Positions 6,380-49,620 of a stretch of DNA of 64,000 nt are shown in pieces (the first letter of the stretch is position 1; each line of letters starts with the position of its first letter). The stretch covers positions 66,402 to 130,401 of the forward strand of contig NHFP02000005.1 of assembly GCA_002172485.2 (NCBI GenBank). The letters run 5' to 3'. The position numbers and the translations under genes are program-made. The notes below the pieces were generated by a model that did no database searches, was not told the origin of the DNA, and was given only the letters and a program-made list of their open reading frames with translations. This DNA comes from Crocinitomicaceae bacterium TMED114 (GTDB lineage Bacteria; Bacteroidota; Bacteroidia; Flavobacteriales_D; Sanyastnellaceae).

Positions 6380-6428
6380 GTTCGTTGGATTGGGTTGTAT
6401 GGTTGAATTCTCAAGGGGAATCCCGGCC

Positions 6429-8054: not shown

Positions 8055-8064
8055 GATGGTCGAA

Positions 8065-22791: not shown

Positions 22792-22795
22792 TTCC

Positions 22796-25800: not shown

Positions 25801-26972
25801 CGCAGCATCCCCTCATACGGAACGGTTATTACGGAGAGTTCGGCGGGCAGTTCATTCCAGAAATGCTGCGCCGGAATTTCATCGACCTGGAACAGGCTTT
25901 CGAAGACGCTTGGAAAGACGCGGAATTCAAGTCCACTTACGCGGACTTGTTGCGAGATTTTGTGGGCAGGCCCACTCCGCTCCAGCGGGCAGACCGCTGG
26001 AGTGAGCGTTGTGGAACTTCAGTCTGGTTCAAACGGGAGGACCTCGCCCACACAGGGGCCCACAAAATCAACAATGCAGTGGGTCAAGTTTTGCTGGCGA
26101 TGCGCATGGGGAAACGCCACATCATCGCCGAGACCGGTGCGGGTCAGCATGGTGTGGCCACGGCCACGGCCTGCGCTTGGGCCGGTTTGCCGTGCACCGT
26201 GTTCATGGGAGCAGAGGATATGGAACGGCAACAGCCCAATGTCGAACGCATGCGCCTCCTCGGTGCGGAGGTGCGGTCGGCGAACACAGGATCTCAGACG
26301 CTCAAGGATGCGACGAATGAGGCCATGCGGCATTGGATTGCCCATCCGGAGGAAACCCATTACGTGATTGGCTCTGCTGTGGGGCCTCATCCGTACCCGA
26401 TGATGGTGGCTGAATTCCATGGCATCATTGGAGAGGAGACCAAGACTGCCTGTCAAACCAAGGGGATCAAACCGAGTCATCTCGTCGCTTGTCTGGGTGG
26501 GGGGTCCAATGCTTTGGGGCTGTTCCTCCCATTTCTTGACGAAGACATTGAATTGATTGGAGTGGAAGCCGCCGGGGCTGGCGTGGAAAGCGGAAGGACT
26601 GCAGCGACGATTGAAAAGGGAAGTCCAGGCATCCTTCATGGTGCCAAAACCATGATTCTCCAAGATGATGAGGGGCAAATCGAAGAGGCCCACAGCATCA
26701 GTGCGGGCTTGGACTACCCCGGGATTGGTCCCTTGCATGCACACCTTGCGTCCACGGGTAGGCTCCGCACAGCGGCGGCCGAGGACGAAGAAGCGCTGCA
26801 AGCGGGACTGCTTTGCACCCGTCTTGAGGGGATTCTTCCCGCCTTGGAGACGGCCCATGCCTTGGCTTGGACCCTACGGGCCGACTGGTCTGGGAGTGAA
26901 GAGGTCATTCTCAATTTGAGTGGAAGGGGAGACAAGGACCTGAAGAACTACATCCAAAATCCCGGTGAATGA
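25797..26972 (+). CDS. trpB: Tryptophan synthase beta chain
   Basis: 391 residues, usual length. GEFGGQFIPEMLRRN, the PLP lysine in HTGAHKINNAVGQ, AETGAGQHGVATATACA, GGGSNALGLF phosphate loop and the C-terminal SGRGDKDL are all typical. It condenses indole with serine. TrpB1 type (HTGAHK, with an adjacent trpA). ATGA overlap with trpF, 4-base overlap with trpA. Confidence 0.97.
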   Translation: MTQHPLIRNGYYGEFGGQFIPEMLRRNFIDLEQAFEDAWKDAEFKSTYADLLRDFVGRPTPLQRADRWSERCGTSVWFKREDLAHTGAHKINNAVGQVLLAMRMGKRHIIAETGAGQHGVATATACAWAGLPCTVFMGAEDMERQQPNVERMRLLGAEVRSANTGSQTLKDATNEAMRHWIAHPEETHYVIGSAVGPHPYPMMVAEFHGIIGEETKTACQTKGIKPSHLVACLGGGSNALGLFLPFLDEDIELIGVEAAGAGVESGRTAATIEKGSPGILHGAKTMILQDDEGQIEEAHSISAGLDYPGIGPLHAHLASTGRLRTAAAEDEEALQAGLLCTRLEGILPALETAHALAWTLRADWSGSEEVILNLSGRGDKDLKNYIQNPGE

Positions 26973-27775
26973 TGAAGGAGCTGATGTCCATTTTGAGAGA
27001 AGACAATCGGGTGAACCTCTCCATTTTTCTGACCGCTGGATTCCCGGACATGAAGACAAGTCAGGCGTTGCTGAAGGTCTTGGCGAATCACCCTGCTGTT
27101 TCCTTTGTTGAGCTGGGCATGCCATTCAGTGACCCGCTGGCGGACGGTCCCACCATTCAGAGGGCGTCCGAAATCGCGTTGGCACAGGGCACCAAATTGG
27201 ATGATGTCTTTGCGCTGGCCAGCGGGTTTCGTGCTTCCTGTGACAAGCCTTTGATGCTGATGGGCTATTGCAATCCAGTGTACCGCCGCGGTGTTGAGGC
27301 CTTCGTGACGCAAGCGCGGGATGCGGGGGCCTCGGGCCTCATCCTTCCCGATCTTCCTTATGCCTCGCATGACCGTGATTTTCGGAGCGTCCTCGAAGCG
27401 AATGGCCAGACCATGTCCTTCCTCGTCAGCCCGACGAGCACCGAGGAGTCCATGGATGAGGCCTTTGAAAAGAGCACAGCTTTTGTCTACGGTGTGGCCA
27501 ATGTTGGATTGACCGGAGACGCCCAGTCGGTGGACAGGACGGCCTTTTTCGAGGGCCTTCAGGACCATCGAACGCGTTGCCCCATCGTGGCGGGATTCGG
27601 AATCTCTGATCCCGCGGACATCCAGCAATTGGAGGGCTTCGTGGATGGGGCCATCATCGGCTCGGCCTTTCTCCGTGCGCTCGGCCCCATTGGGGAAAGC
27701 AGGCCTTCTGAATCCGAGGCAGTCCAACGGGCAATCGCGTTTTTAAATCTGTTCACCCCCCACTCGCAACCATGA
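26969..27775 (+). CDS. trpA: Tryptophan synthase alpha chain
   Basis: 268 residues. The catalytic Glu lies in FVELGMPFSDPLADGPTIQ, with the catalytic Asp in the same segment; GLILPDLPYASHD, YGVANVGLTGD and GFGISDPADI complete the barrel. It releases indole from indole-3-glycerol phosphate and channels it to TrpB. ATGA overlaps at both ends; followed without a gap by the DAHP synthase gene. Confidence 0.95.
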   Translation: MMKELMSILREDNRVNLSIFLTAGFPDMKTSQALLKVLANHPAVSFVELGMPFSDPLADGPTIQRASEIALAQGTKLDDVFALASGFRASCDKPLMLMGYCNPVYRRGVEAFVTQARDAGASGLILPDLPYASHDRDFRSVLEANGQTMSFLVSPTSTEESMDEAFEKSTAFVYGVANVGLTGDAQSVDRTAFFEGLQDHRTRCPIVAGFGISDPADIQQLEGFVDGAIIGSAFLRALGPIGESRPSESEAVQRAIAFLNLFTPHSQP

Positions 27776-28785
27776 TCGTCCAACTTCATCATCCATCTTC
27801 CTCTGAAGTGATTCAGGAAGCTGAAGCCTTTCTCGCGTCTTTGCATGTGCGGTCTCGGCTTGTGCAAACCGCGGATTCCACGATGTTCGTCGTGTATGCC
27901 GGTGACCTGCCGGATCCACGGCGCATCCGACAATGTCCCGGTGTCCGGGATGTCCACCGGATCTCCGATGATTTCAAGCTCGTCAGCAGCCAATGGAAGC
28001 AGGGTCGCTCGACCGTCCGGGCAGGTGAGGTCGACTTCGGTCCGAGGGACTTTCAGTTGATCATGGGACCATGCAGCGTAGAGGGAGAGGATCAACTGGA
28101 GTCCGTTGCCGCCTTTCTTGCAGCACAAGGGGTCAGCATGATGCGTGGAGGCGTGTACAAACCCAGAAGCAGTCCTTATTCGTTTCGGGGCATGGGGCTG
28201 GAGGGGCTGGATGTGTTCCGGCGGGTGGCCGATCGACATGGACTCGGCATTGTGACCGAAGTGATGGAAGTGGCCCAGATCGAAGCCATGGTCGACAAGG
28301 TGGATGTGTTTCAAATCGGAGCCAGAAACATGCAGAATTTCAATTTGCTGGAAGCCGTGGGTCAATCGGGTCTACCGGTCCTGCTGAAACGAAGCATGTC
28401 CGGCACAATCGAGGAGTTCCTCCAATGTGCTGAGTACATCTACAATGTGGGAAACGAGCGCATTTTGCTGTGCGAAAGGGGCATCCGAACCTTCGAAAGC
28501 GCGTATCGGAATACGTTTGATGTGAATGCCATCTCGTATTTGCAAGCGCGATCACATCTGCCGGTGATTGCCGATCCATCTCATGGAGTGGGACTGCGTC
28601 GTCATGTGGTGGACGTCGGGCTCGCGGCAGTGGCGGCAGGAGCTGATGGCCTGATGGTTGAAATCCATCCCCGTCCGGATGAAGCCGTCAGTGACCGAAA
28701 TCAAACGCTGTATTTCGATCAGGCGGCGAAGCTGATCGAAGGGAGCCGAAAGGTCCATGCATTGAGGACCAGTCTGGTGCCGTGA
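27772..28785 (+). CDS. aroF: 3-deoxy-7-phosphoheptulonate (DAHP) synthase, type I beta
   Basis: 337 residues, the Thermotoga-like length with an N-terminal ferredoxin-like regulatory domain (~1-85, MIVQLHHPSSSEVIQEAE) before the KDO8P/DAHP barrel. Core marks: LIMGPCSVEGEDQ, MMRGGVYKPRSSPYSFRG, VFQIGARNMQNFNLL, LLKRSMSGTIEEF, LLCERGIRTFE, DPSHGVGLRRHVV and GLMVEIHP. It catalyses the first step of the aromatic pathway. It is the last gene of the trp operon (ATGA overlap with trpA), so Trp attenuation should also set entry into the shared pathway. No chorismate mutase domain is seen; the N-terminal domain may bind Tyr or Phe, which is inferred. Confidence 0.92.
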   Translation: MIVQLHHPSSSEVIQEAEAFLASLHVRSRLVQTADSTMFVVYAGDLPDPRRIRQCPGVRDVHRISDDFKLVSSQWKQGRSTVRAGEVDFGPRDFQLIMGPCSVEGEDQLESVAAFLAAQGVSMMRGGVYKPRSSPYSFRGMGLEGLDVFRRVADRHGLGIVTEVMEVAQIEAMVDKVDVFQIGARNMQNFNLLEAVGQSGLPVLLKRSMSGTIEEFLQCAEYIYNVGNERILLCERGIRTFESAYRNTFDVNAISYLQARSHLPVIADPSHGVGLRRHVVDVGLAAVAAGADGLMVEIHPRPDEAVSDRNQTLYFDQAAKLIEGSRKVHALRTSLVP

Positions 28786-35760: not shown

Positions 35761-36558
35761 TTAGGCGAGGGTGGCGACGCTGAAGGTAAGAGCGTGGCCG
35801 CGGACCTTCACGCGGTCGCCGTCGAGGGCGCAGTGCAGTTGGCCACGTCTGGCGGAGCGTTGTTCAGCCCAGAATGCCGTCTGGCCGGTTTGGGTGTTCC
35901 AGTAGGGGACGAGGGAGCAGTGGGCCGAACCCGTGACGGGGTCCTCCAGAATGGTGGCCTGTGGGGTGAAGAAGCGGGACACGAAGTCGACGTCGTCGCC
36001 GGGTGCGGTCACAATGACGCCGCCGTGGCCGAGGTGGATCTGGTCGAATTCTGCGCGGTCGATGGTGATGGCGTCTACCGTGGCCTGGTCCGGGTAGACG
36101 AGGACGTAGTCGCGGGCCTTCAGGACGGCAGTGGGGGCGTGGTTCAGGGCGTTGGCGATGGGCTCTGGCAATTTGGCGGGCTCCGGTGGTCGCGAGGGGA
36201 GGTCCATCTCGAGCCGGCCGTCGTCGGTCTTGCGCACCGTCAGGATGCCGCTGGCGGAGTTGAAGCGAACGGCTTCCGCGTTGGGTGTGATGTGGTGAAG
36301 GACAGTGTGGGCGCTGGCCAGGGTCGCGTGGCCGCACAGGTCCATTTCGATGTCAGGGGTGAACCAGCGCAGGTGGAATTCGGCCTCGGGATCGTCCGGG
36401 GTGGGGACGATGAATGCGGTCTCGGCCACCGCCATTTCCTGGGCCATTTTCAGCATCCAAGCGTCGTCCGGCCACCGGGTCATGGGGATGACGCAGGCGG
36501 GGTTGCCACCGAACGGGTCCAGGGTGAAGGCGTGGATGCGGTAGCAGGTCAGGCTCAT
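35761..36558 (-). CDS. PhzF-family isomerase
   Basis: 265 residues from ATG 36558. PhzF fold marks: YRIHAFTLDPFGGNPACVIP at the N-terminus, catalytic Glu in MAVAETAFIVP, LRWFTPDIEMDLCGHATLAS, and the second half ILEDPVTGSAHCSLVPYW. Such enzymes isomerise phenazine precursors or related diketo acids; the substrate here is unknown. It overlaps the PNGase-F-like gene by 4 bases (ATGA), so it is the third gene of a zinc-ribbon / PNGase-like / PhzF operon. There is a short inverted repeat at 35733-35747 just past the stop, without a U-run. Confidence 0.9.
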   Translation of the reverse strand: MSLTCYRIHAFTLDPFGGNPACVIPMTRWPDDAWMLKMAQEMAVAETAFIVPTPDDPEAEFHLRWFTPDIEMDLCGHATLASAHTVLHHITPNAEAVRFNSASGILTVRKTDDGRLEMDLPSRPPEPAKLPEPIANALNHAPTAVLKARDYVLVYPDQATVDAITIDRAEFDQIHLGHGGVIVTAPGDDVDFVSRFFTPQATILEDPVTGSAHCSLVPYWNTQTGQTAFWAEQRSARRGQLHCALDGDRVKVRGHALTFSVATLA

Positions 36559-37796
36559 GGGTGGTGGAGTGTGGCGGCGATGTTCCAGAAGTTGAACGTG
36601 CTGTCCGTCCAGGATTGAGCGCCGGGAATGGCGATTTCGAGGGTGTGCTCGCCGGCGGCGAGGTCGCCGAGTTCGAGGCGGAGTGGCTTTACATCGTCGC
36701 CCGGGCACCAGTTGGAGCGGCTGAGGTCGGAAGAGGCAACGCGCTCCTCGAGGGTGTCGCCGCGGACGACGTAGGTGGAGGGCCAGAAACCGCTCGTCGG
36801 GTTGAACCTGCGGTAAGCGCCGCAGTCGGTGCGCCAAGGGGTCCATCGCTTCAGGGTGTCGCCATCGAGGAGGAGGAGGTGCTCTTGCTCGGTGAATTCG
36901 TCGCCACCCGCATGGCCGCCGTGGCCCGTGGTCAGAAAGTCGAGGGTGGCGCCCTTTGAGGCGGCGTCGAGGGTGAATGGGACCGTGAGCGGGCTTTCGG
37001 GGAAGGCCGTGTAGGGCCGCTGGTCGTGGGCGAGCTTGGTCGTGTTGAGGAGCGGGCGGGTGGTCTGATCGAGGGCGACATCGCAGGGGAGGTCACTCTC
37101 TTCCATGGTGATGCTGGCGCTCACATTGTAGCCTTCAGCAGTCCAGGTGTCGATGTAGATGCCGACCCACAGTGTGTCGGTGTCGGTGAGCCACGATTGC
37201 ATGTGGGAGAGGTCCGCGGACCAGTGGACACTGTCGGCCCAAGCGCCGACGGATTCTGGCTTGAAGGCTTGGGCGCGTTCACTGTGGCTGAAGTGGCCGA
37301 CGCCGAAGGGGGTGATGAAGCGCAGCAACTCGAGGGCGGGCTCCCGGTTGGCTTCCTCCGGGTCGGACACAATGCCAGCGAAGCCGATGGTGTCGGCATC
37401 GCCGCCCTGCTGCATACGCTGGAGGTAGTCGCGGCCCGCCCCGTCCGCAAAGGCAAACAGGGTGCCGCTCTTGTCCCACGGGTCGCCGGCGGAGCGCAAG
37501 CTGACGTCCACGGTGATGGCGCACTGTCGGTCGCGGTGGGGCAAGGCGATCGGCTTCAGCCGGATGCGGCCGGCATCGAGGCGGAAGTCGCCTCGGTCGG
37601 TCAGGACCGTATCCATGGGCCGGCCGGGCACGAAGGCCATGGTGTCAGCGGACCACAGCACGACGGTGTGGTCCCCGAGGGCAGGGAGGTCGTTTCCCGT
37701 CTGGCAGGACACGAGCAGGGCCGAGATGGCAGCCCAAAGGATGAGGTAGAGGCCAAGATGGAGGCCAGCACCGAGTCGGGGGGGCTGGCGGGTCAC
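36555..37796 (-). CDS. PNGase-F-like secreted lipoprotein
   Basis: 413 residues with a GTG start at 37796, forming a GTGA overlap with the zinc-ribbon stop; no ATG precedes the signal peptide (YLILWAAISALLVSC, lipobox). The C-terminal half resembles the peptide-N-glycosidase F second domain: WRTDCGAYRRFNPTSGFWPS, then SRSNWCPGDDVKPLRLELGD and GEHTLEIAIPGA. The N-terminal half has a matching beta-sandwich (TLDFLTTGHGGHAGGDEFTE). It may remove N-linked glycans or be a non-catalytic relative; I could not place the catalytic residues with certainty. Cotranscribed with phzF-like. Confidence 0.7.
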   Translation of the reverse strand: MTRQPPRLGAGLHLGLYLILWAAISALLVSCQTGNDLPALGDHTVVLWSADTMAFVPGRPMDTVLTDRGDFRLDAGRIRLKPIALPHRDRQCAITVDVSLRSAGDPWDKSGTLFAFADGAGRDYLQRMQQGGDADTIGFAGIVSDPEEANREPALELLRFITPFGVGHFSHSERAQAFKPESVGAWADSVHWSADLSHMQSWLTDTDTLWVGIYIDTWTAEGYNVSASITMEESDLPCDVALDQTTRPLLNTTKLAHDQRPYTAFPESPLTVPFTLDAASKGATLDFLTTGHGGHAGGDEFTEQEHLLLLDGDTLKRWTPWRTDCGAYRRFNPTSGFWPSTYVVRGDTLEERVASSDLSRSNWCPGDDVKPLRLELGDLAAGEHTLEIAIPGAQSWTDSTFNFWNIAATLHHP

Positions 37797-37987
37797 GCGC
37801 TGCAGGTCATGTCGGCGCCGCAGCAGAGGGGCGACTTGATCTTGCCCTCGCAGGACGGGCAGCGGGAGACTTGAACGGAAGAACCGTCGGGCAGGTCGAG
37901 GTGACCGTTTTCCAAGGGGACGTCGCATTTGGCGCATTGGGCCTTGACGGACATGCCGCATTGGCCGCAGGAGTACGTGGCGTTCAT
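37793..37987 (-). CDS. Small zinc-ribbon protein
   Basis: 64 residues from ATG 37987: MNATYSCGQCGMSVKAQCAK, then a second knuckle CPSCEGKIKSPLCCGADMTC. Four CxxC or CC pairs (CGQC, CAKC, CPSC, CC) would hold one or two zinc ions. Proteins of this layout are widespread in Bacteroidota and are of unknown function. Its stop overlaps the GTG of the following PNGase-F-like gene, so that gene is probably translated by coupling. Confidence 0.8.
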   Translation of the reverse strand: MNATYSCGQCGMSVKAQCAKCDVPLENGHLDLPDGSSVQVSRCPSCEGKIKSPLCCGADMTCSA

Positions 37988-38060: not shown

Positions 38061-39242
38061 TTACTGGAACACCCGGATGTAGTCGACGGCCATGAAGCCC
38101 GGGAAGGGTGTGGTCTCGTCCGGGTCGCCGGGCCAGCTGCCACCGATGGCGACGTTCATGATGAAGAAGAACGCGTCGTTGAACGGGTAATCGAACCCAT
38201 TCATGTTGGCCGGGGTAATCGTGTGGTAGTGCTGGTCGTCGAGGAAGAGCTTGATTTCGTCCTCCTGCCACTCGAGCGAGAAGACGTGGAACTCGTCCGC
38301 GAACGTGGCCGGGAACTCCAGGGCAGGGGCGATGACGCCGTTGTACTGGCGGTTGGCGTTGTCCGGTCCCCAGTGCACCGTGCCGTGGATGAGGCGCGGC
38401 TGATGGCCAACGAGCTCCATGATGTCGATCTCGCCACAGGCGGGCCAGCCCACCTGGTCGATGTCGGACCCCAGCATCCACAACGCCGGCCAGATGCCCT
38501 GGCCGATGGGGAGGATGGCGCGAATGTCGACGCGGCCGTACTGGAAGTCGAAGATGCCCTGCGTCTTCAGTCGGGCGGAGGTGAAGCCGCCGTCGTTCCG
38601 AGCGAAAATGTAGCACCGACCATCCTGCACCGTGACGTTCTCGGGACTGTTGGTGTAGTTCTGGAGCTCATTGTTGCCCCATCCCCAATTGCCGTTGCCG
38701 AGATCGTAGGTCCATTTGGATGGGTCCGGGACACCGGGGGTGTCGAACTCGTCGCCCCACACCAAGGTCATGCCAGGATAGGAGTCCGGCGTGCTGTAGC
38801 CCGCATCGCTGATCTGGATGCTCGTGTCATCGTTGCGGATGGTGCCCACGGCCTCCTGGATGTTGTCCCGGAGGTAGCCGCCTTCCGGCGCGCTCAGGGA
38901 GACGGTGAAGTTCTCGTCCGGCTCCAGCCACTCGTCCACGATGATCTCCACCTCGATGGACTTCTTCGTTTCGCCTGGGGCAAACGTGAGGGTGCCCGAG
39001 GTGGCGGTGTAGTCCTCGCCAGCGGTTGCGGATCCGTCCACCGTGGCGTATTGGACGCGCACCTCTTCGGTCTTGGCCTCGTCAATCCTCACGTCGAAGG
39101 AGAAGACGGAGTTGGCCTCGTTCTCGAAGGCGGTCCGGTCGTTGGAGAACCGGAACTCGGCGGGCGTCTGCTCCTCGCCACCATCGCAGGTGGTGAAGAG
39201 GAGGATGGAGGCCACAGGAAAGATCAGCGGGCGGAGGGTCAT
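38061..39242 (-). CDS. GH16 endo-beta-1,3-glucanase (laminarinase) lipoprotein
   Basis: 393 residues, complete. Lipoprotein signal MTLRPLIFPVASILLFTTC; Calx-beta domain (~30-140, ending TIRNDDTS); GH16 domain (~155-393) with GEIDIMELVG (Glu271 nucleophile, Asp273, Glu276 acid/base) and the C-terminal FNDAFFFIMNVAIGGSWPG and VDYIRVFQ typical of laminarinases. It cuts beta-1,3-glucan at the cell surface and feeds SusCD. Last gene of the operon starting with GH3; 4-base overlap with the PKD gene before it. Paralog of the truncated GH16 at 1-895. Confidence 0.95.
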   Translation of the reverse strand: MTLRPLIFPVASILLFTTCDGGEEQTPAEFRFSNDRTAFENEANSVFSFDVRIDEAKTEEVRVQYATVDGSATAGEDYTATSGTLTFAPGETKKSIEVEIIVDEWLEPDENFTVSLSAPEGGYLRDNIQEAVGTIRNDDTSIQISDAGYSTPDSYPGMTLVWGDEFDTPGVPDPSKWTYDLGNGNWGWGNNELQNYTNSPENVTVQDGRCYIFARNDGGFTSARLKTQGIFDFQYGRVDIRAILPIGQGIWPALWMLGSDIDQVGWPACGEIDIMELVGHQPRLIHGTVHWGPDNANRQYNGVIAPALEFPATFADEFHVFSLEWQEDEIKLFLDDQHYHTITPANMNGFDYPFNDAFFFIMNVAIGGSWPGDPDETTPFPGFMAVDYIRVFQ

Positions 39243-40087
39243 TGGGCGGCGAAGTAGAGGGTGAAGTAGCCCTCCCCTGCGGAGCAGTCCCCGAGTTGGA
39301 GAGGGGCAGACACCACGAGGCGGTCTTCGGTGAGCTCGATGATGTCAAAGTTCGGACCCGCATCCCACACGCCCATGAACCAGCAGAAGCCGAATACGTC
39401 TTGGGGCAGGTAGATCTGGTCCTCGCCATTGATACCGGCACCGTCGAACAGGAGGTAGGACAGCGTGTCGGGCACTTCGAGCGGGGTGACCACGTAGCCT
39501 TCGTAGGGGTTCACGGTTCCTCCGTTGTTGTTGTAGAAGTAGTGGCCGTCGGTCGTGAACTGGTAGCTGTCGTCGTACTGCTCGGGCACGAGCCCGGCGA
39601 GTGGGCTGCTGTACCATTCGCTGCTGCCGGGCTGCGGCCCCACCGAGATGGCGCCGGCATCGCCGGAGAAGATCCACGTCTTCTGGTTGTCGCATCCAGT
39701 CAACAGGGCGAGCGTGCCCTCGCAGGGGAGCTCGACGGTGTTGGCCACGAAGATGCTGTCCGAGGCGCTTCCGGATCCGCCTGCTCCGTAGACGGAGTAG
39801 GTGACGCCGTACGTGCCGGCCTGCGGATAGAATGTGGTGTCCTGCGTGGCGTTGCTCGTCAGGTTGTTTCCGAAGTCCCAGAAGTGGAGAAAACCGTCAC
39901 CGGCCAGCGATGTGAAGACGACACGGTTGGAGTCGACATAAGGCACCGCAGCCGTGTCGACGTAGAGGTATTCCCATTCGAAGGAGGCGTCCGGTGCGCC
40001 CGGCAGATCGATGCCGTCTTCTTCGATGGGTTGGCAACCTGCTGCAAACAAGAGGGCCGCGAGGGGGAGGAAATGATGGAAACGCAT
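39239..40087 (-). CDS. PKD surface lipoprotein with one KTW module (SusE-like)
   Basis: 282 residues. Lipoprotein signal MRFHHFLPLAALLFAAGC; a PKD-like domain (~30-115, FLHFWDFGNNLTSNATQDTT) and a C-terminal module opening GCDNQKTWIFSGDAG, with DDSYQFTTDGHYFYNNNGG and a YFTLYFAAQ end. That module is the same type as the two in 4685-6379, so this is a half-size relative. ATG overlaps the susD stop by 1 base, and it overlaps GH16 by 4 bases. Probably holds glucan next to SusD; inferred from position. Confidence 0.75.
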   Translation of the reverse strand: MRFHHFLPLAALLFAAGCQPIEEDGIDLPGAPDASFEWEYLYVDTAAVPYVDSNRVVFTSLAGDGFLHFWDFGNNLTSNATQDTTFYPQAGTYGVTYSVYGAGGSGSASDSIFVANTVELPCEGTLALLTGCDNQKTWIFSGDAGAISVGPQPGSSEWYSSPLAGLVPEQYDDSYQFTTDGHYFYNNNGGTVNPYEGYVVTPLEVPDTLSYLLFDGAGINGEDQIYLPQDVFGFCWFMGVWDAGPNFDIIELTEDRLVVSAPLQLGDCSAGEGYFTLYFAAQ

Positions 40088-41685
40088 CAGTATCCGGGGT
40101 TTTGGGTGATGAGGCCGCCACTGAGGGTGATCTCATTGCTGGGAATGGGGAAGAGTTCGTTGACGCCGGCGGTGAAGCTGTAGCTTGCGCCGGGGAAGTG
40201 CTCGTCAAGGTGGGCCTGCATCACGTCGGCAGCCCGGCCTTGGCGGACAAGGTCAAAGAAGCGGTGTCCTTCGAGGGCGAGTTCCACCCGGCGCTCATGC
40301 CAGATGTCCTCGAGCGTCACGTCTTCGTTGAAGATGGGCTGTCCACCGCCTGCCGGGAAATGAGGTCCTCCGAAAAGCGGGAGGGCGGCACACGGTGCAA
40401 CGCCCGCAGGCGTGCCGGCGCACCAGTCTTCACCGCGGGCGCGGTCGCGAACGGCATTGACCATGTCGTTGGCCTCGTCGATTCGTCCCGTATTCACGCA
40501 GGCTTCGGCGTGGAAGAGCATGATGTCGGCGAGGCGGATGACGCGGTCGTTGGTGTGTCCGTTGGGGTTCGGGTCACCGAACGGCGCCTCCTCTGCGGCA
40601 TTGTTGAAGTACTTCTTGGGGTAGTACAGGTGCGGCATGCCAGTGGCGTCCAGTGTGAAGATGCCGCGGTCGCCCATCACATCACCCTCTTGGAAAATGG
40701 AATGGGAGAGGCGCGGATCGCCGGTTTCGAACGCGTCGACGAGGTCCTGGGTCGGCAGGTTGAAGCCGTAGCCGTTGAACTGGCCTCGGGCCCGCTGGAA
40801 TACGTTGGTGAACGTGCCCTCGAGCTGCTGGCCCCAGTTTCCGCCGGAGGCGTTCATGTACTGGATCTCCCAGATCGAGCCGGGGCCGTTTTCACCGAGT
40901 TCGGTGAAGATGTTGCCATAGGCAGGATCGAGGCTGTATTGTCCCTCGTTGATGAGGTCGCCGGACACGGCGTAGCACGCTTCCCATTCGCCGAGGTAGC
41001 CGTACACTTTGGTCATCAGGCCTTGGGCCGAGCCGCGGGTGGCGCGACCGAGGAAGTTGACGCTGTAGCTCTGGGGAAGGAATTCAATGGCGAACTCCAG
41101 GTCTTCCTTGATGAGGTCCCAGATTTGGTCGGCCGTGGCGCGGGGCTGCTGGTACTCGGTGGAGGCCAGCGGCGTGGTCACGAGCGGCACGCCGCCGTAG
41201 GTGGTCACCAGGTTGAAGTACCAGTAGGCGCGGATGAAGTGCGCTTCGGCGAGGTAGGCATCACGGACCTCGGCGTCCATGTCGATGTCCGGAATCTTCT
41301 GCAGCGCAAGGTTGCAGTAGGCGATGCCGCGGTAGGCCACCTGCCACTCGACGAGGAGCATCTGGCCGGCACTGTTGCCCTGAAAACGCTCGAAGTCGTA
41401 GAGCTGCGGATCGTCGCCGTCACCGGAGCCTCCCTTGTCGGTGTCGTCGGAGCAGACGTCCCCGAAGAACCAGCGGAAGTGCGGCTTGAGGCCAGAGGAA
41501 CCCTGGATGTTGGTCACCTCCTGTTGCAGGGTGTTGTAGCAGGCGATGGTGGCCGAGAGGGCGTCCTCCGGGGTCTTGTAGAAGTTCGCCTCGGTGGCGC
41601 CGACTACCGGAGTCCGCTCGAGGAACTCCTGCTTGCAGGAGATGAGCAAGACTGGGACGAGGAGAAGAATGAGTGTGCGGTTCAT
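40087..41685 (-). CDS. SusD-family nutrient-binding outer-membrane lipoprotein
   Basis: 532 residues, lipoprotein signal MNRTLILLLVPVLLISC. SusD marks: NFYKTPEDALSATIACYNTL, AYRGIAYCNLALQKI, EAHFIRAYWYFNLVTTYGGV, and near the end WHERRVELALEGHRFFDLVRQ and LFPIPSNEITLSGGLITQNPGY, the standard C-terminus. It is the lid of the SusC at 41698-44751, whose stop lies 12 bases upstream of its ATG. Longer relative of the first SusD. The substrate is taken to be beta-1,3-glucan oligosaccharide because GH16 and GH3 are in the same operon. Confidence 0.95.
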   Translation of the reverse strand: MNRTLILLLVPVLLISCKQEFLERTPVVGATEANFYKTPEDALSATIACYNTLQQEVTNIQGSSGLKPHFRWFFGDVCSDDTDKGGSGDGDDPQLYDFERFQGNSAGQMLLVEWQVAYRGIAYCNLALQKIPDIDMDAEVRDAYLAEAHFIRAYWYFNLVTTYGGVPLVTTPLASTEYQQPRATADQIWDLIKEDLEFAIEFLPQSYSVNFLGRATRGSAQGLMTKVYGYLGEWEACYAVSGDLINEGQYSLDPAYGNIFTELGENGPGSIWEIQYMNASGGNWGQQLEGTFTNVFQRARGQFNGYGFNLPTQDLVDAFETGDPRLSHSIFQEGDVMGDRGIFTLDATGMPHLYYPKKYFNNAAEEAPFGDPNPNGHTNDRVIRLADIMLFHAEACVNTGRIDEANDMVNAVRDRARGEDWCAGTPAGVAPCAALPLFGGPHFPAGGGQPIFNEDVTLEDIWHERRVELALEGHRFFDLVRQGRAADVMQAHLDEHFPGASYSFTAGVNELFPIPSNEITLSGGLITQNPGY

Positions 41686-41697
41686 GTGTTCTCTGTC

Positions 41698-44600
41698 TTA
41701 GAAGGTGACGTTGACGCCTGCGATGATGGTGCGGGCGACGGGGTAGAAGCCACGGTCGATGCCGATCTCCAGCGTGCCGCGGGAACCGATTTCGGGGTCG
41801 AGGCCAGTGTAGTTGGTCCAGGTGAGCAGGTTGCTCGCGGAGATGTAGCAGCGGAACTTGCCGATGTCCATCTTCTCCAAGATGCGGTCGGGCAGGGAGT
41901 ACCCGATTTGCAGGTTCTTTACACGGAGGAAGGAGCCGTCTTCGATGAAGCGGTCGGACACCCGGTTGTTCTGGTTGGCGTCCACGTGGGAAATCCGTGG
42001 ATGCTCGTTGGTGCTGCCTTCTCCGGTCCAGCGCTCGAGGGCCGAGATCGGAAGGTTGGTGGTGTTCAGGTCGTAACGGAAGATGCCGTTGTACAGGTCG
42101 TTGCCGTGGGAGCCCTGCAGGAAGAGGCTCAGGTCAAACTGCTTGTACTTGACGTTGCCCGTGATGCCGTACGTGAAGTCCGGGTGGGGATTTCCAAGTA
42201 CGGTTTTGTCGTTCTCGTCGAGGATGCCGTCTTCGTTTTGGTCGACGAAGATGACGTCGCCGGCCATGGCGTTGGGCTGGGCCGTGTTGGCGGCCGCCTC
42301 TTCGTCCGTCTGGAAGATGCCGGCGGTCTCGTAGCCGTAGAATACGGCCATAGGGAGGCCGATGTCGGTGTAGGCGACGAAGTCGTTGCCCGTGCCGAAC
42401 ACGCCACCGGTGGACAGCGGCTGTCCTCCTTCACCGAGGCCAGTGACCTCGTTGCGGATGACGCTAATGTTGCCGTTGACGTCGTACTCCCAATCGCCCT
42501 TTTCACCGCGGTAGGTGAGGGCGAGCTCGACCCCCTTGTTGCGGGCGCTGGCCACGTTGGTGGCGGCGGGCAGGAAGCCGACCACACCCGGGACGGGCAC
42601 GACGGCGAGCATGTCGTTGGTGTTCTTCACGAAGTAGTCGAGGACCACGTTGAACTTGCCGCGGTAGAGGTCAAGGTCGACTCCGGCGTTGAACTGCTCC
42701 ACGGTTTCCCACTTCAGGTCCGGGTTGGACGTGGTGACGGGGCCGGCGCCGTTGACTTGGACTTGCTCGGGACCGAATGTGTAGTTCTGGCCGTTGAACA
42801 CGACGGAAGTGAAGTCGAAGTTGCCGATGCCGTCGGCGTTGCCGTTGCGGCCCCACGAGGCGCGCACCTTGGCGAATTCAATCCAGTCCTTCTCGACGAC
42901 CCACGGAATCTCGGTGAGGTTCCACGCGGCGGAGAGGGAGGGGAAGATGCCGTAGCGGTTGTTCGCACCAAACTTGGAGGAGCCGTCCCGGCGAATCGTG
43001 CCGGAGAGGGAATAGCGGTCGCCGATCTCGTATTGGATCCGGGCAAAGCTGGACAGGTAGGAGCTCTCACCGTAACCGCCGCTGGCGTTCGGGGCCTGCT
43101 CGTTGAAGTTGAGGCTGTTGTCCAGGAAGGCCAGCTCCGGGTCGTTGGAGTTGAGGCTGTCGCGGTAGGTGCCGATGTTCTGGTAGTTGCCGTAGAGGGC
43201 GGAGTACCCGAAAATGGCCTGGATGTGGTCGCCGTTTTCGAAGTTCTTGTCGTAGGTGGCGGTGTTCTCCCACTGCATGGTGGACCACTTGTTCTCGTTG
43301 CGGATCAGGCTGTTGACCTCGCGCCACTCGTAAGCGGGTCGGTTCGGGTCGTTCGGACCGATGCCGAGGTCGAACGTCGGGGAGAAGATTTTCTGGGAGC
43401 CCAAGGAAAGGTCCACGTTCACGGAGGAGCGGACCTTGAGGTTCTGCCAAATGTCGTATTCGCCGTACAGGTTGCCGACGAAGCGGTTGGTGGTCCACTT
43501 GTCGTGGGTCGTCTCCACCTGGTTAATCGGGTTGGCGATGTCGCTTCCGATGAGCTCGGAGTAGGCGTAGGATCCGTCGGGGCGCGTGACCGGGGTGACG
43601 GGGTCCATGTTCAATGCGCGCACGACCGGGGTCGCGAACTCATTGTTCTCGGCGAGGGCGTTCCGGTTGAGGTGGGTGAAGTTCAACGTCTGTCCAATGC
43701 GGAACCGGTCACCGGCCTCTTGTTGAGAGCTGATGCGGAAGGTGGTCCGCTCGAAACGGCCTTTCTCACCACCGATGATGCCGTCCTGCACGAAGTGGCT
43801 TCCGCCGATGGCCGTCGAGGACGTGGCGGTGCCCTTCGTGAAGTTGAAGCTGTGGTTCATGATCGGGGCCCGCTGGAACAGGGCGTCTTGCCAATCGGTG
43901 CCTTCTCCGAGGCTGGCCGGATCGGCAAGCTGGGCGTAGGGGACGAGGCCGGCGGAGGCACGGCTCTCGTTCATGAGGATGGCGTACTCTTCAGCGTTGA
44001 GGAGACCAATTTTCTTCCACGGCTCCTGGAAGCCGTAGTAGGCGTCGTAGGTCACCTGAGCCGGCTGGCCCTTGGCGCCCTTCTTGGTCGTCACGAGAAT
44101 CACCCCGTTTCCACCTCGCGCACCATAGATGGCAGCCGAGGCGGCGTCCTTCAGAACGGAAATGCTTTCAATGTCGGCCGGGTTGAGAAAGTCGATGCCC
44201 CCGGTCGGGATGCCGTCGACGACCCACAGTGGCTCGGCGTTGTTCAAGGAACCCGTTCCCCGAATCCGGATGGACTGGGTGGAGCCAGGCTGGCCGGAGT
44301 TTTGCGTCACCTGGACACCCGCGGCACGGCCTTGCAGCGCCTGCTCCGTCCGGAGCACGGGCACTGCAGTGGCGTCCTTGATGTCGATGGTTCCGACCGC
44401 ACCCGAAATCTTGCTTCGCTGCTGGTTTCCGTAGCCGATGACAATGGCTTCCTCGAGGCCGGCGATGTCGGCGGCGAGGGGATGGTCCACCGTCGTTCGG
44501 CCCGCGAGGGCCACGTCGGTGGTTTTGTAACCGATGTAAGTGAAGGTCAACGTGGCCTCGGGCGTGGACACCATCAAGGTGTAGTTGCCCTCGAGGTCCG

Positions 44601-44751
44601 TGACCGTGCCGTTGTAGGTGCCCTTCTCGACGACGGAGACTCCGGGGAGTCCCATTCCGTCATCGGCGTCGGTCACCTTGCCGATGATGGGCGTGGACTG
44701 TGCCCATGCCCCGAAGGGCACGAGCCAGGCCAGAAATAGCAGGATGCGCAT
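41698..44751 (-). CDS. SusC-family TonB-dependent outer-membrane oligosaccharide transporter
   Basis: 1017 residues from ATG 44751 (MRILLFLAWLVPFGAWAQST); a TTG at 44763 would add four residues. Carboxypeptidase-regulatory-like domain (IIGKVTDADDGMGLPGVSVV), TonB-box-like IVIGYGNQQRSKISG, plug with SIRIRGTGSLNNAEPLWVVD, SusC signature IESISVLKDAASAAIYGARG, and a barrel ending IIAGVNVTF. Third gene of the operon, 20 bases after the binding-protein stop; susD follows. Comparable over its whole length to the first SusC, with differences mainly in the barrel loops, so the two may take up different glucan sizes. Confidence 0.95.
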   Translation of the reverse strand: MRILLFLAWLVPFGAWAQSTPIIGKVTDADDGMGLPGVSVVEKGTYNGTVTDLEGNYTLMVSTPEATLTFTYIGYKTTDVALAGRTTVDHPLAADIAGLEEAIVIGYGNQQRSKISGAVGTIDIKDATAVPVLRTEQALQGRAAGVQVTQNSGQPGSTQSIRIRGTGSLNNAEPLWVVDGIPTGGIDFLNPADIESISVLKDAASAAIYGARGGNGVILVTTKKGAKGQPAQVTYDAYYGFQEPWKKIGLLNAEEYAILMNESRASAGLVPYAQLADPASLGEGTDWQDALFQRAPIMNHSFNFTKGTATSSTAIGGSHFVQDGIIGGEKGRFERTTFRISSQQEAGDRFRIGQTLNFTHLNRNALAENNEFATPVVRALNMDPVTPVTRPDGSYAYSELIGSDIANPINQVETTHDKWTTNRFVGNLYGEYDIWQNLKVRSSVNVDLSLGSQKIFSPTFDLGIGPNDPNRPAYEWREVNSLIRNENKWSTMQWENTATYDKNFENGDHIQAIFGYSALYGNYQNIGTYRDSLNSNDPELAFLDNSLNFNEQAPNASGGYGESSYLSSFARIQYEIGDRYSLSGTIRRDGSSKFGANNRYGIFPSLSAAWNLTEIPWVVEKDWIEFAKVRASWGRNGNADGIGNFDFTSVVFNGQNYTFGPEQVQVNGAGPVTTSNPDLKWETVEQFNAGVDLDLYRGKFNVVLDYFVKNTNDMLAVVPVPGVVGFLPAATNVASARNKGVELALTYRGEKGDWEYDVNGNISVIRNEVTGLGEGGQPLSTGGVFGTGNDFVAYTDIGLPMAVFYGYETAGIFQTDEEAAANTAQPNAMAGDVIFVDQNEDGILDENDKTVLGNPHPDFTYGITGNVKYKQFDLSLFLQGSHGNDLYNGIFRYDLNTTNLPISALERWTGEGSTNEHPRISHVDANQNNRVSDRFIEDGSFLRVKNLQIGYSLPDRILEKMDIGKFRCYISASNLLTWTNYTGLDPEIGSRGTLEIGIDRGFYPVARTIIAGVNVTF

Positions 44752-44771
44752 GGTGCGGTTCAATGTTGGAT

Positions 44772-46667
44772 TCAGTGTTGGACAATCACCGTTTCGGTGG
44801 CCGTGGCGGCGCCATTTTTGACGCGGATGATGTAGAAGCCGTTGGGCTGGTTGCCGAGGTCAACGACCGTCTGGACGCTGCCGGCGTTGAAGTTCTCGGT
44901 GCAGACCTGGCGGCCGGAGAGGTCGCGGACGACCAGGTTGGCATCGGCTTCCGTTGCGGCCGGGAAGGCCACGGTCAGAACGCCGTCGGTCACGCTCGGG
45001 AAGACGCGGAACTGAAGAGGGTTGCGTTCTGCGACATGGTTGATGAGACACGGTGCACAGGACTCGAAGCACACGGTGTCGAGCACCATGGCATCCTCGG
45101 AGGAAATGGTCAGGATTCGGTTGGTGAAGCCTGCCGAGGTGATGGTGCACGCTGAATCGGCCTGAGCGTCCAACTGTTCGGGTGCGCTCCAGCTTCCGTT
45201 CATGAATTTGTATTCATGGTCGCCCTGCGGCAGATCGAGGGTGACCGAGTACACATTGTCACCGTCGGCATCGCTCATGAGGACGGTTTCTCCCTCCCAG
45301 TTGTCGATGGTCGGGCCTGTGACGTAGACGTCTCCATCCACAGTTTGACTGCTCATGTCGACGTGGAAGGTCACCTCGGTGTCGGGCACCACGACCTCCT
45401 CACATTCCTCGCAGCTTTCGAAGCAGATTGGATCCAGCACGACGTTGCCAGCACCGGGTGCAATCGTGATGATCCGATTGACAAAAGTGTCCTCCCCGTC
45501 AATCGTGGTCAATGTGCACATGCTGTCTTCCTGACTGTCGAGGTTCTCGGTTCCGTCCCAGTCGCCATTGTTGAACTTGAATTCGTGATCCCCAGCGTCC
45601 AGCTCCACATTGACTGCATAGATGCCATCTCCAATATCGTTCATCACGACGCTCGTTCCGTCCCAGTTGTCGATGGTTTGTCCCGTGATGTAGATGGGGC
45701 CGAGGATGTCTTGCTCGCTCATGTCGACCTGGAAGGTGACGGTCGACGCGGTAGAACATTCACCGTCGGTCCAGGAGGTCACACCACCGTAGAATTGGGC
45801 TTCACACTCGTTGCCATAGGTCACGCCGTCACAGCCGCAGACCGGCGCCCACTCTGTCGTGCACATCATCGTGGTATCGATCTGTAGCGAATCGATGCAG
45901 GGTGTGACTTCACCGCATGCATCACAGCCGTTGTAGCAAATGGCATCCAGCACAATCGGGTCGCTTCCCTCGACGATCAACAGGCGATTCACGTATTCAC
46001 CGGGTGCTGTCGTGCAGGATTCACTGCCGTCAAATGTTTCAGCGGTGTCCCAATCGCCATCGATGAGGTATTTCCATTGAATCGCTCCAGGCAGGCACTC
46101 CAGCGTGAGGGTGTAGATGCCATCACCGTCAGCGTCCTCCATGGGGTTGGCCCATTCACTCCATGAGATCCAATCTCCAACCATATACACGGTATTCGTG
46201 ACATTTTCGTTGGCCATGTCGACATGAAAGGTCACATCGACCGGGCCGCCAGTGGCAGTGCATGAGCCATCTGTAGTACACTGTCCAAAACAGGTGTTGA
46301 TGATGGTGTCTTCTGTGATGTTCACCAACTCACGGTCGCTCCACTCACCTGCAGCACAGGGCTGACCAACGATGTTTTCCTTACAGGACCAGTCTGCCCC
46401 GCATGTTCCATTGGTAAATGTGTAAAGTCCGGTATACCCGGACTCCACTTCAACCGTGATGGTCCAGATGTCGTCTCCGTCTTCATCGGTCATGAGATTG
46501 GGATTGTTGGCTCCTGGACCACCCCAGTCCTCTCCGCCGGCGAGGTACACGCCATCGGGGGAGGTGGTTTCGTTGGCCATATTGACGTTGAAGGTGACGC
46601 TGACCATTTGGGCTTGCATTTGGAAGAATGCCATGCAGGTCATCAAAAGAAGGGGGAGGTGCTTCAT
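44772..46667 (-). CDS. Secreted multi-module glycan-binding protein with Kazal domain and T9SS sorting
   Basis: 631 residues with signal peptide (MKHLPLLLMTCMAFFQMQAQ). Four repeats of ~110 residues each open with a VTFxVxM strand (MVSVTFNVNM, VDVTFHVDM, STVTFQVDM, TEVTFHVDM), carry DGDDIWTITVE / DGDGIYTLTLE-type strands, and close with a Cys cluster such as VCFESCAPC. They look like carbohydrate-binding beta-sandwiches (CBM20/E-set type). Between repeats 2 and 3 (~265-305) sits a Kazal-like inhibitor domain, CTTEWAPVCGCDGVTYGNEC. A T9SS domain (~553-631) ends the chain. Second gene of the GH3-to-GH16 operon; probably a surface glucan binder. The GH5 N-terminus carries one similar module. Confidence 0.8.
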   Translation of the reverse strand: MKHLPLLLMTCMAFFQMQAQMVSVTFNVNMANETTSPDGVYLAGGEDWGGPGANNPNLMTDEDGDDIWTITVEVESGYTGLYTFTNGTCGADWSCKENIVGQPCAAGEWSDRELVNITEDTIINTCFGQCTTDGSCTATGGPVDVTFHVDMANENVTNTVYMVGDWISWSEWANPMEDADGDGIYTLTLECLPGAIQWKYLIDGDWDTAETFDGSESCTTAPGEYVNRLLIVEGSDPIVLDAICYNGCDACGEVTPCIDSLQIDTTMMCTTEWAPVCGCDGVTYGNECEAQFYGGVTSWTDGECSTASTVTFQVDMSEQDILGPIYITGQTIDNWDGTSVVMNDIGDGIYAVNVELDAGDHEFKFNNGDWDGTENLDSQEDSMCTLTTIDGEDTFVNRIITIAPGAGNVVLDPICFESCEECEEVVVPDTEVTFHVDMSSQTVDGDVYVTGPTIDNWEGETVLMSDADGDNVYSVTLDLPQGDHEYKFMNGSWSAPEQLDAQADSACTITSAGFTNRILTISSEDAMVLDTVCFESCAPCLINHVAERNPLQFRVFPSVTDGVLTVAFPAATEADANLVVRDLSGRQVCTENFNAGSVQTVVDLGNQPNGFYIIRVKNGAATATETVIVQH

Positions 46668-46712: not shown

Positions 46713-48992
46713 TCAGGGTGCGATGAGTTCAAACTCAGCGAACTGGTCTTGGATCCGAAGGCCGAAGTACCCAGGCTCCACGATGTACATGTTGTTTCGT
46801 CCAATGAACCCAAGGTTGTGAGTATGGACGTCGAGGGTGACCTTGGAGGTTGCGCCGGCAGGCACAACCACCTGTTTGTAGGCCGCGAGTTCGTCCACGG
46901 AGGGGGTGATGCTGGCCACGCGGTCTTGCGAGTAGACGATGACGGTTTCGGTGGTGCTGCGGTCGCCGGTGTTCTGGAGCGTAACCTCGACGGTCACGGT
47001 GTCCCCCATGTTGGCTGATTCTCCCGTCAGGATTTCCAGGTTGGTGGTTTGAACCGGGGAGTAGGACAGGCCGGAACCAAAGGTGTACTGGGGGTTGAAT
47101 CCGCCTTCGTTGAGTTCAGTGTGCTTGCAGTCGTGGGTGAGGTGCGAGGATGGATGGCGCGGCCAGGTAAAAGGCAGACGGCCGGAGGGATTGAAGTCCC
47201 CGCTCAGGACGTCAGCAATGGCACGTGCCCCATAGTCTCCTGGCAAGTAAGCCATGAGGAAGGCGTCGAGGAGTGGCTCGATCGCAGAGTGGGTGCGGGG
47301 GCGACCTCCGACATAGACTCCGATGACGGGCACGTCGGTGGCGTGAATGGCCTTCACGAGGTCCTGTTGGTTCTGGAAAAGTTCAATGGTCTCGACGTTG
47401 CCCTTGAATTCCGTATACGGCATCTCCCCGAGGAATACCACGGCACACTGCGTCGTTCGAGGGTGGAGGGAACGTGTCACGGCGTCAATGTCGGCTTGCC
47501 CGAATTCCATGTCCAATTCTGCCAGGTCAATGCGGTCCGCGCCGAAGACCTCGCGCATGGACTCGACCGCGGTGGGGCGTCCGGGTGTGTTGTACTTCGG
47601 GTTTCGGCCTTGCCAGGTTCCGGTCCATCCACCGTTCAAGGCATTTAGGCTGTTGGCCGTAGGGCCCGTCACCAGGATTCGTCCCGTGCCTCCGATGGGG
47701 AGGATGGGTTGATCGGGGTAGACGGCGTGCTGACCTTCATTCTTGAGCAGGGTCATGCTCTCGAGGGCGGCTCGCGCCGCGGTCCCCTCAAGGCTGGCCT
47801 TGTCGGGGTAGTCCTCGATGGAAGGAGGCATTCCACCGGTGTCGAACAGGCCACGGTCGTATTTGACGCTGAGGATGCGGCGGACGCTCTCGTCCAGTCT
47901 GGATTCGGCGATTCGGCCCTCGCGGACGAGTTCGGCAAGCAGCACAGGAAATAACGTGTCGGTCGGCACCATGCTCATGTCAATGCCGGCATGAATGGCC
48001 ATTTCGATGGCGTCCTTGTAATCAGCGGCCACTTTGTGGCGCTTGAAGAGGTACCGGATGTCCTCCCAGTCGGTCACCACCAGCCCTTCGAATCCGAGCT
48101 CATCCCGCAGGATGTCGGTGAGGATGTGGCGGTCGGCATGGACGGGGATGCCATTGGTTTCGCCGCTGTTGACCATGACCGTGGCGGCGCCGGCTTCAAC
48201 GGCTGCGGCGAAGGGCGGGAGGAAAATCTCCCGCAGCTGGCGCTCGGGAATCCAGGCCGGTGTGCGGTCCTTGCCGGACAGCGGACGGCTGTAGCCCATG
48301 TAGTGTTTGAGGCAGGCCGCGATGGGAGAGGGGCCTTCCTGGTATCCCTTGACCATCGCCACGCCCATGTCAGTCACCAGCCGTGGGGATTCGCCAAAGG
48401 TTTCCCAAAACCGGGGCCAACGGGCGTCACGGGCGACGTCCAGGACCGGAGAGAAGTTCCAGGGAATGCCGGAAGCCAAGACCTCTTGGGCCGCATTTTC
48501 GGCGAACTTCCGTACGAGTGCCGTGTCCCACGTGGCGGCGAGCCCCAACTGTTGGGGGGCCAGCACGCCGCCGGTGGTGTATGTTGGACCATGAATGGCG
48601 TCAATGCCGTAGAGCACGGGGATCCCGGACGGCTTTTCCGTCGCTTTGTCCTGGATGCCTCCGATGAGCTCGTGCCATTTCTCCGGGGTGTAGGCATGGC
48701 CAGCACAGTTCAAAATGCTGCCCACACGAAGGTCGACGAGGACGTGCTTTAGTTTCTCGGGGTCGAGTCGATGGGGCTCATCCACGTTCATGCCCTCCTT
48801 CACGCAGACCATGTCGAGGGTGAGCTGGGTCATTTCCCCTGCTTTGTCCTCGAGGGTCAACGTGCTCAGCACACTGTCGATGAAGGCGTCTTTCGAAGAC
48901 TCTGGAGCGGTGTTGGTCGCATCTGAACAACCTGCGGCGAAAAATCCCATCAGGCCCGCCAACATTGCAGAGAAACGAATCGAAGGTGTCAT
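46713..48992 (-). CDS. GH3 beta-glucosidase / exo-beta-1,3-glucosidase lipoprotein
   Basis: 759 residues from ATG 48992 (MTPSIRFSAMLAGLMGFFAAGC, lipobox). A GTG at 49028 would add 12 residues inside the operator and is not likely. GH3 barrel with YGIDAIHGPTYTTGG and nucleophile Asp308 in GLVVTDWEDIRYL; then the alpha/beta sandwich (ILVTGPTANSLNALNGGWTG) and a C-terminal fibronectin-like domain. It should split short beta-glucan oligosaccharides to glucose. First gene of the operon GH3, binding protein, SusC, SusD, PKD, GH16; a perfect palindrome lies 21 bases upstream. Confidence 0.92.
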   Translation of the reverse strand: MTPSIRFSAMLAGLMGFFAAGCSDATNTAPESSKDAFIDSVLSTLTLEDKAGEMTQLTLDMVCVKEGMNVDEPHRLDPEKLKHVLVDLRVGSILNCAGHAYTPEKWHELIGGIQDKATEKPSGIPVLYGIDAIHGPTYTTGGVLAPQQLGLAATWDTALVRKFAENAAQEVLASGIPWNFSPVLDVARDARWPRFWETFGESPRLVTDMGVAMVKGYQEGPSPIAACLKHYMGYSRPLSGKDRTPAWIPERQLREIFLPPFAAAVEAGAATVMVNSGETNGIPVHADRHILTDILRDELGFEGLVVTDWEDIRYLFKRHKVAADYKDAIEMAIHAGIDMSMVPTDTLFPVLLAELVREGRIAESRLDESVRRILSVKYDRGLFDTGGMPPSIEDYPDKASLEGTAARAALESMTLLKNEGQHAVYPDQPILPIGGTGRILVTGPTANSLNALNGGWTGTWQGRNPKYNTPGRPTAVESMREVFGADRIDLAELDMEFGQADIDAVTRSLHPRTTQCAVVFLGEMPYTEFKGNVETIELFQNQQDLVKAIHATDVPVIGVYVGGRPRTHSAIEPLLDAFLMAYLPGDYGARAIADVLSGDFNPSGRLPFTWPRHPSSHLTHDCKHTELNEGGFNPQYTFGSGLSYSPVQTTNLEILTGESANMGDTVTVEVTLQNTGDRSTTETVIVYSQDRVASITPSVDELAAYKQVVVPAGATSKVTLDVHTHNLGFIGRNNMYIVEPGYFGLRIQDQFAEFELIAP

Positions 48993-49013
48993 GTCGCTTG
49001 AATTGGACAGCAA

Positions 49014-49028
49014 GTGTACGAAATACAC
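49014..49028. promoter_or_regulatory. Candidate operator, copy C (perfect, extended arms)
   Basis: GTGTA-CGAAA-TACAC; the arms extend to 7 bases each when the flanks are counted (AAGTGTACGAAATACACTT, 49012-49030). It stands in the 118-base divergent gap between the GH3 operon and the DUF4920 gene, 21 bases before the GH3 ATG. On the minus strand it contains TATTTCG, a loose -7 element. Confidence 0.65.
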
Positions 49029-49098
49029 TTAGTTGGGGCAGGCCCAGAGGCATGACTCTTATGGGGTATAGATGCAGGGGGCTCTGGGGCGCCGAATG

Positions 49099-49110: not shown

Positions 49111-49620
49111 ATGAAGACGAAGACCTTGATGAGCGTGGCCGCGGTGGTGGGCATGCTCGTGTGGACCGGATGTGCAACCGGCGGCAGTTCCGTTGAGCAG
49201 CCTGGTTCCGATGAGGGGAACAACCGGACCTTTTATGGAGAGGTAATCGACACGGTTGGCGGGCTGAATGGCCACGCACTGAGGACGGCCTTGAGCCTGT
49301 TTGAAGGACGTACGCAGGCCCGTTTCGAGGGCGAAATCACAGCGACGTGTCCCAAGAAAGGATGCTGGATGGACGTGGCTTCCGGTCGGGACACGGTGTT
49401 TGTCCGCTTTCAGGATTACAGCTTCTTCGTGCCGACCGAAGGAGTCGAAGGCAAGCGGACGATTGTAGAAGGGGAGGCTTTCTATGACACCCTTAGTGTG
49501 GCCGATCTTCAGCATTATGCCCAGGATGCTGGCGCCACGGAGGAGGAAATCGCCGCCATCACCGAGCCAAAGCTCAAGCTGGCGTTCACGGCGACCGGCG
49601 TGATGATCGAAGACCAATGA
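49111..49620 (+). CDS. DUF4920-like lipoprotein
   Basis: 169 residues from ATG 49111 (MKTKTLMSVAAVVGMLVWTGC, lipobox). The core RTFYGEVIDTVGGL, ARFEGEITATCPKKGCWMDV and FVRFQDYSFFVPTEGVEGK matches the OB-like DUF4920 family common in Bacteroidota. A CPKKGC pair could bind metal or form a disulfide. Function unknown. Its stop overlaps the ATG of the cytochrome-like gene, so the two are coupled. Confidence 0.75.
   Translation: MKTKTLMSVAAVVGMLVWTGCATGGSSVEQPGSDEGNNRTFYGEVIDTVGGLNGHALRTALSLFEGRTQARFEGEITATCPKKGCWMDVASGRDTVFVRFQDYSFFVPTEGVEGKRTIVEGEAFYDTLSVADLQHYAQDAGATEEEIAAITEPKLKLAFTATGVMIEDQ

Follow-up and report, generated by a model that had tools for sequence, protein, structure and literature searches.

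A GTGT-N7-ACAC palindrome conserved before glucan-utilization genes in a marine Flavobacteriales genus is the predicted operator of a pfkA-linked NrtR/AraR-family repressor

The 15-bp palindrome GTGTA-N5-TACAC recurs in front of glycan genes in a 64-kb window of the Crocinitomicaceae bacterium TMED114 genome (the window being the whole stretch of 64,000 nucleotides analysed here), which raises the question of whether a single protein reads these sites and, if so, which one. Exact copies occur twice, at 11233-11247 and 49014-49028, the latter sitting within a 19-bp inverted repeat, AAGTGTA-N5-TACACTT (49012-49030), with perfect 7-base arms. A near copy at 1021-1035, GTGTATTTTGCACAC, differs at one inner position, fits the shorter core GTGT-N7-ACAC, and lies inside TGGTGT-N7-ACACCA (1019-1037), the 6-base arms of which are perfect. 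Our sequence scan thus confirms all three positions given in a preliminary description of this DNA. When up to one mismatch is allowed, five matches to GTGTA-N5-TACAC are seen in the window against 0.20 expected; two of these, at 3079 (within the GH5 coding sequence) and 20082, have a broken GTGT core and are probably due to chance. The core GTGT-N7-ACAC is found exactly three times, at the 11233, 49014, and 1021 sites, against 1.0 expected. As 7 of 100 shuffles reach three cores, the core alone is not significant in 64 kb.

The genes behind the three sites are those that the preliminary description had named. The predicted operator of the GH3 operon (49012-49030, minus strand; AAGTGTATTTCGTACACTT on the gene strand) has a 15-bp core that ends 21 bp ahead of the ATG (48992) of a GH3 glycosidase gene (46713-48992, minus strand; Pfam PF00933/PF01915), and the apparent operon extends to GH16. 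Following on the minus strand, as judged by their domains, are a secreted protein with AMPK1/CBM20-type glucan-binding and Kazal domains and a T9SS tail (44772-46667), a SusC-like TonB receptor (41698-44763), a SusD-like protein (40087-41685), and a GH16 protein of the beta-glucanase type with a Calx-beta domain (38061-39242). A gene for a PNGase F-like N-glycanase (36555-37961) lies downstream of the GH16 gene. The inner SusC gene (at 41698) was considered for an operator of its own, but a search of relatives found no conserved site and the idea was dropped. Divergent from GH3, across the common operator, is a DUF4920 lipoprotein gene (49111-49620, plus strand), an arrangement that is kept in 11 loci. 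The second predicted operator (11233-11247, minus strand; GTGTAGATTGTACAC on the gene strand) is located 78 bp before the ATG (11154) of a SusC-like TonB receptor gene (8065-11154), which is followed by genes for a SusD-like protein (6429-8090) and a PKD-domain protein (4685-6586), all assigned by domains and all on the minus strand. The operator-like core at 1021-1035 (plus strand) is separated by 1 bp from the ATG of a downstream gene encoding a GH5 cellulase-family protein with CBM6 and a T9SS tail (1037-4360, plus strand). The window also contains a run of tryptophan biosynthesis genes (21442-28785), from an anthranilate synthase component to trpB-trpA and then DAHP synthase, and GTGT-N7-ACAC is absent in its vicinity. 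Of those window genes that were scanned with Pfam, none was assigned to a transcription factor family, in agreement with the earlier statement that no regulator gene lies there.

The preliminary description had argued from simple base counting that the copies are not chance-like. That argument is weak because the own draft genome (1.73 Mb, 68% complete) contains four exact sites and also four matches to the reversed control pattern; raw site counts were therefore dropped as evidence, and the comparison between genomes decides. Of the other two exact sites in the genome, one stands 21 bp ahead of a gene pair comprising blh and proteorhodopsin, the light-driven proton pump, and the other 19 bp ahead of a gene for a secreted protein with a CBM48/AMPK1-type glucan-binding domain. 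We examined stretches of ~3 kb around exact sites and control sites in 17 genomes of the same genus. Among the 72 sites collected, 62 are intergenic, 9 are no more than 40 bp from a predicted gene start, and the remaining 1 falls in coding sequence, whereas 19 of 20 matches to the reversed control are coding, with a single one intergenic or at a gene start. The sites fall into orthologue groups: GH3 with the divergent DUF4920 lipoprotein (11 loci), plastocyanin-like secreted proteins (11), SusC (8), a FabH-like synthase (7), an alpha/beta-hydrolase-type secreted protein (7), alanine dehydrogenase (6), and a divergent pair formed by a cupin and a 96-aa gene (5), along with CBM48-type secreted proteins and an MFS sugar transporter.

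The converse search, from orthologous genes to their upstream sites, gave the same outcome. A perfect palindrome precedes all ten GH3 orthologues of at least 72% identity for which the 5' end is available, and a 60% orthologue is without it. GTGT-N7-ACAC is found upstream of 10/10 SusC orthologues, in eight of them as the perfect palindrome, and a GTGTACGTT-type site stands just ahead of the ATG of all 12 proteorhodopsin genes (~21 bp in most). Conservation upstream of orthologous operons, which had been proposed as a check, is thus borne out for GH3 and SusC, and it establishes the non-chance character of the 11233 and 49014 sites that counting could not. The GH5 copy is a lesser case: it fits the core but is kept in G001 alone, the nearest relative (91% identity); homologues elsewhere lack both the N-terminal region and the site, and it is possible that it arose by chance. 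At the proteorhodopsin loci of the 12 genomes (L358-L369), a second core occurs ~300 bp upstream in most, and the paired cores suggest that these genes may be under two-site control.

The genes that carry the site do not bear out the earlier idea of a regulon specific to beta-glucan, since the same element precedes starch-type, glycolysis, alanine dehydrogenase, FabH-like, cupin, and proteorhodopsin genes. Two further genera of the family have many exact sites ahead of central-metabolism and starch genes, including pfkA, enolase, pyruvate dehydrogenase E1 alpha and beta, and glutamate dehydrogenase, as well as GH65 (maltose-phosphorylase type), alpha-amylases, MFS sugar transporters, and SusC. 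The proposed scan of related genomes therefore found no confinement to beta-glucan genes; what it did point to is one regulator family, Nudix/NrtR. One of the family-level pfkA sites is common to a divergent Nudix-type regulator gene, and this arrangement led us to a candidate regulator, which we call TF-A.

In the genome under study, TF-A is encoded on another contig, outside the window (G000:C1:96149-96865), and orthologues are present in 14 of the 17 genus genomes. The protein combines a Nudix domain with an NrtR winged helix (PF00293, 3.8e-5; PF21906 NrtR_WHD, 8.2e-24; both past the cut-off), and its best sequence match in the PDB is BtAraR, at 1.6e-31. Its gene is flanked by the divergent pfkA-gapA genes and, downstream, by a gene of the glucose/sorbosone-dehydrogenase type. 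The gapA-pfkA pair and TF-A share an operator (L370:2090-4869, on the same contig), which is likely to be a control point of glycolysis. Within a few kb of TF-A there is a distinct SusC gene (L310-L312, L064, L115), and it too is preceded by GTGT-N7-ACAC, of which the outer bases are constant while the inner ones vary. All 14 TF-A genes of the genus have the site GTGTA[CT]TTTT[GCA]ACAC just upstream in their own promoter; in our genome this self-site is the one-mismatch match at C1:96116-96130. Among 78 TF-A relatives from named Bacteroidota, the core occurs within ~250 bp upstream in 54, where shuffles lead one to expect 0.22 and the reversed core gives 0; many of them, Pedobacter species included, are also divergent from pfkA. 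P. suwonensis DSM 18130 (L233), for example, has a pfkA-linked orthologue with a perfect self-site. In a tree, the genus TF-A proteins group firmly with other Flavobacteriales pfkA-linked genes (100/98), and BtAraR is placed on a long branch.

The excess of sites over controls also follows the candidate. Across 60 genomes, sites stand to control sites as 197:138 where TF-A is present, as defined by at least 52% identity, and 32:64 where it is not (Fisher 8e-6, with the sites of related genomes taken as independent and three incomplete genus genomes omitted from the group without TF-A). In G008, G012, and G013, which are 64-79% complete, sites are present and TF-A was undetected.

The preliminary description had regarded the palindrome as an unfamiliar operator. 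It is in fact of a known type, that of the NrtR/AraR family. BtAraR (BT0354; PDB 5bs6/5dd4/5ddg/5deq) is an NrtR-family repressor of L-arabinose utilisation that comes off DNA upon ligand binding, and the duplex in its DNA cocrystal is GTGT-TACTTTT-ACAC, with the core GTGT-N7-ACAC (PMC4666351). The window sites share this 15-bp frame and spacing exactly, and the TF-A self-operator, GTGT-ACTTTTG-ACAC, is close to the crystal duplex itself. The helix with which BtAraR reads GTGT (D178-K184, DKRNFRK) is unchanged in TF-A, and LDKRNFRK is found in 14/14 genus proteins, so that the DNA-reading residues of the AraR branch, D178, K179, R180, N181, R183, and K184, are all present. At the wing contacts, K204 and R205 of BtAraR are replaced by H and K, which keeps the positive charge only at 205. 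Over the arabinose pocket, scored at R34, F36, G47, G48, F49, R86, V92, F129, and H131, TF-A aligns at R86, V92, F129, and H131, while F36, G48, and F49 are replaced, and beside R86 it has an insert of ~12-15 residues with several K/R that BtAraR lacks. TF-A is linked to pfkA-gapA, whereas AraR proper is linked to ara genes, and its predicted regulon is far wider than arabinose use.

Other known regulators were compared as well. Shewanella NrtR (3gz5/3gz6), an ADP-ribose-responsive regulator of NAD metabolism, shares the Nudix and winged-helix build of TF-A (phmmer, 1.6e-11) but has GKSFRR in place of DKRNFRK in the recognition helix, and none of the site-bearing orthologue groups, in a survey of exact 10-base sites only, contains NAD-synthesis genes. 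In the literature searched, sugar control in the Bacteroidota has been described in terms of SusR, hybrid two-component systems, ECF sigma factors, sugar-specific repressors, and a Crp-like global factor (PMC3878776). The last of these, BT4338 of Bacteroides, resembles TF-A in that it governs sugar-use genes and has a predicted self-site, but it belongs to a different protein family and its motif, wwwTATGTTnTAnAACATAwww, is unrelated to GTGT-N7-ACAC. XylR (BT0791), the second NrtR-type sugar regulator of B. thetaiotaomicron, is described as a member of the NrtR family, like TF-A, with a role in sugar control (PMC3878776).

The position of the operators relative to promoters bears on the direction of control. 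Mapped -7 promoter boxes of Flavobacterium psychrophilum include TAnnTTTG and TAnnTTGY (PMC9723704). The TF-A operator encloses TAnnTTTG boxes of the TACTTTTG type in 11/14 cases; the SusC operator encloses a TAnnTTGY box in 8/8, the box of the window copy being TAGATTGT; and the CBM gene operator does so in 3/3. The proteorhodopsin operator contains TACGTTG in 11/12, and the 1021 core overlaps the presumed -7 box of the GH5 gene, TATTTTGC. The 49014 site is one base off a -7 box (TATTTCGT). That several operators enclose or overlap -7 boxes favours repression by promoter occupation, as had been proposed from the overlap at two copies, and we infer this direction of control for the operators that enclose such boxes. 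The alanine dehydrogenase, FabH, and cupin groups show no clear coverage of a -7 box by the operator, and activation or another mode is possible for these genes.

The same boxes could be read in another way, with the palindrome acting chiefly as a core-promoter element of extended form, in which a sigma factor reads a -7 box held in a fixed GTG...CAC frame and there is no dedicated regulator. TAnnTTTG or TAnnTTGY does lie inside the element in several groups, and TAnnTTGY is the SM5 box of F. psychrophilum (PMC9723704). However, no consistent internal -7 box accompanies the palindrome retained in the GH3, FabH, alanine dehydrogenase, alpha/beta-hydrolase, and cupin groups, and most of the 11 plastocyanin-like loci (including L066 and L053) have a separate TATATTG ~10 bp downstream of the operator. 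With both outer arms conserved and the element restricted to few promoters per genome, we judge this reading very improbable. Mere chance, which the equal genome counts of exact sites and reversed controls and the shuffles that reach three cores would allow, deserves almost no weight against near-fixed positions before orthologues in 10/10, 10/10, and 12/12 genomes and before 54/78 regulator genes; for the 11233 and 49014 sites, it is refuted by this conservation.

If a regulator is involved, proteins other than TF-A have to be weighed. Proteins of the Lrp type are able to recognise 15-bp palindromes whose centre spans 5 bp, and alanine dehydrogenase ranks among the classic targets of such regulators, so that both the architecture of the site and one of its genes would suit an Lrp/AsnC-family operator. 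AsnC_trans_reg (PF01037), however, is found in only 2 of the 17 genus genomes and is absent from G001, which is 98% complete and has 8 sites. The near absence of the family refutes it as a general explanation in the genus, and we assign it a negligible probability. A closer competitor in kind is paralogue B (L154-L167), a second NrtR-like regulator that is present in most genus genomes and whose recognition helix, FDKRNFRK, contains the same DKRNFRK as TF-A; the sites might belong to it in part or entirely, or be common to both proteins. Yet none of 14 paralogue-B genes has the operator upstream, against 14/14 TF-A genes, the sites are retained in G003, G005, and G015, where paralogue B was undetected, and the site excess tracks TF-A. 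A role for paralogue B at these sites is therefore improbable.

The conservation of the sites, the homology of the protein, the autoregulatory sites, and the identity of the recognition helix lead us to assign the palindrome, with considerable confidence, to TF-A as the operator of a homodimeric cytoplasmic repressor of the NrtR/AraR family, and we infer that TF-A does bind these sites. A single regulator for both glucan loci, as the preliminary description had supposed, is thus very probable, though it need no longer be called unknown, given that a protein encoded next to pfkA can be named. In the mechanism we propose, the two subunits would each read a GTGT half-site with the DKRNFRK helix, as BtAraR does in its DNA cocrystal, and TF-A bound at its own gene, the SusC operon, the CBM gene, proteorhodopsin, and GH5 would keep RNA polymerase from the promoter. 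Its release would be triggered by a sugar or a sugar phosphate, L-arabinose being an improbable signal, and glucan import and breakdown would then be switched on together with glycolysis. The replacement of F36, G48, and F49 in the arabinose pocket, the alignment of the other residues listed, and the K/R insert beside R86 make a phosphorylated sugar at most a reasonable guess for the ligand.

While the regulator family and the operator type are already known, we found nothing relevant in the literature searched on a broad pfkA-linked Nudix regulon or on such control of proteorhodopsin. From the genes that carry the site, we lean modestly toward the view that the pfkA-linked NrtR/AraR branch may serve marine Flavobacteriales as a global carbon regulator and may have its counterpart in Pedobacter. 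As a single cytoplasmic sensor of glycolytic state, it would couple the glucan loci to starch use, to glycolysis and pyruvate dehydrogenase, to the alanine and glutamate dehydrogenases, and to proteorhodopsin, and light harvesting would thereby be set by carbon supply through this one operator. If true, marine Flavobacteriales would possess a compact carbon switch that joins glucan loci, glycolysis, and proteorhodopsin. The control of proteorhodopsin expression would also become directly testable, as its operators are conserved in the genus and both a candidate repressor and its predicted DNA-reading helix can be named.
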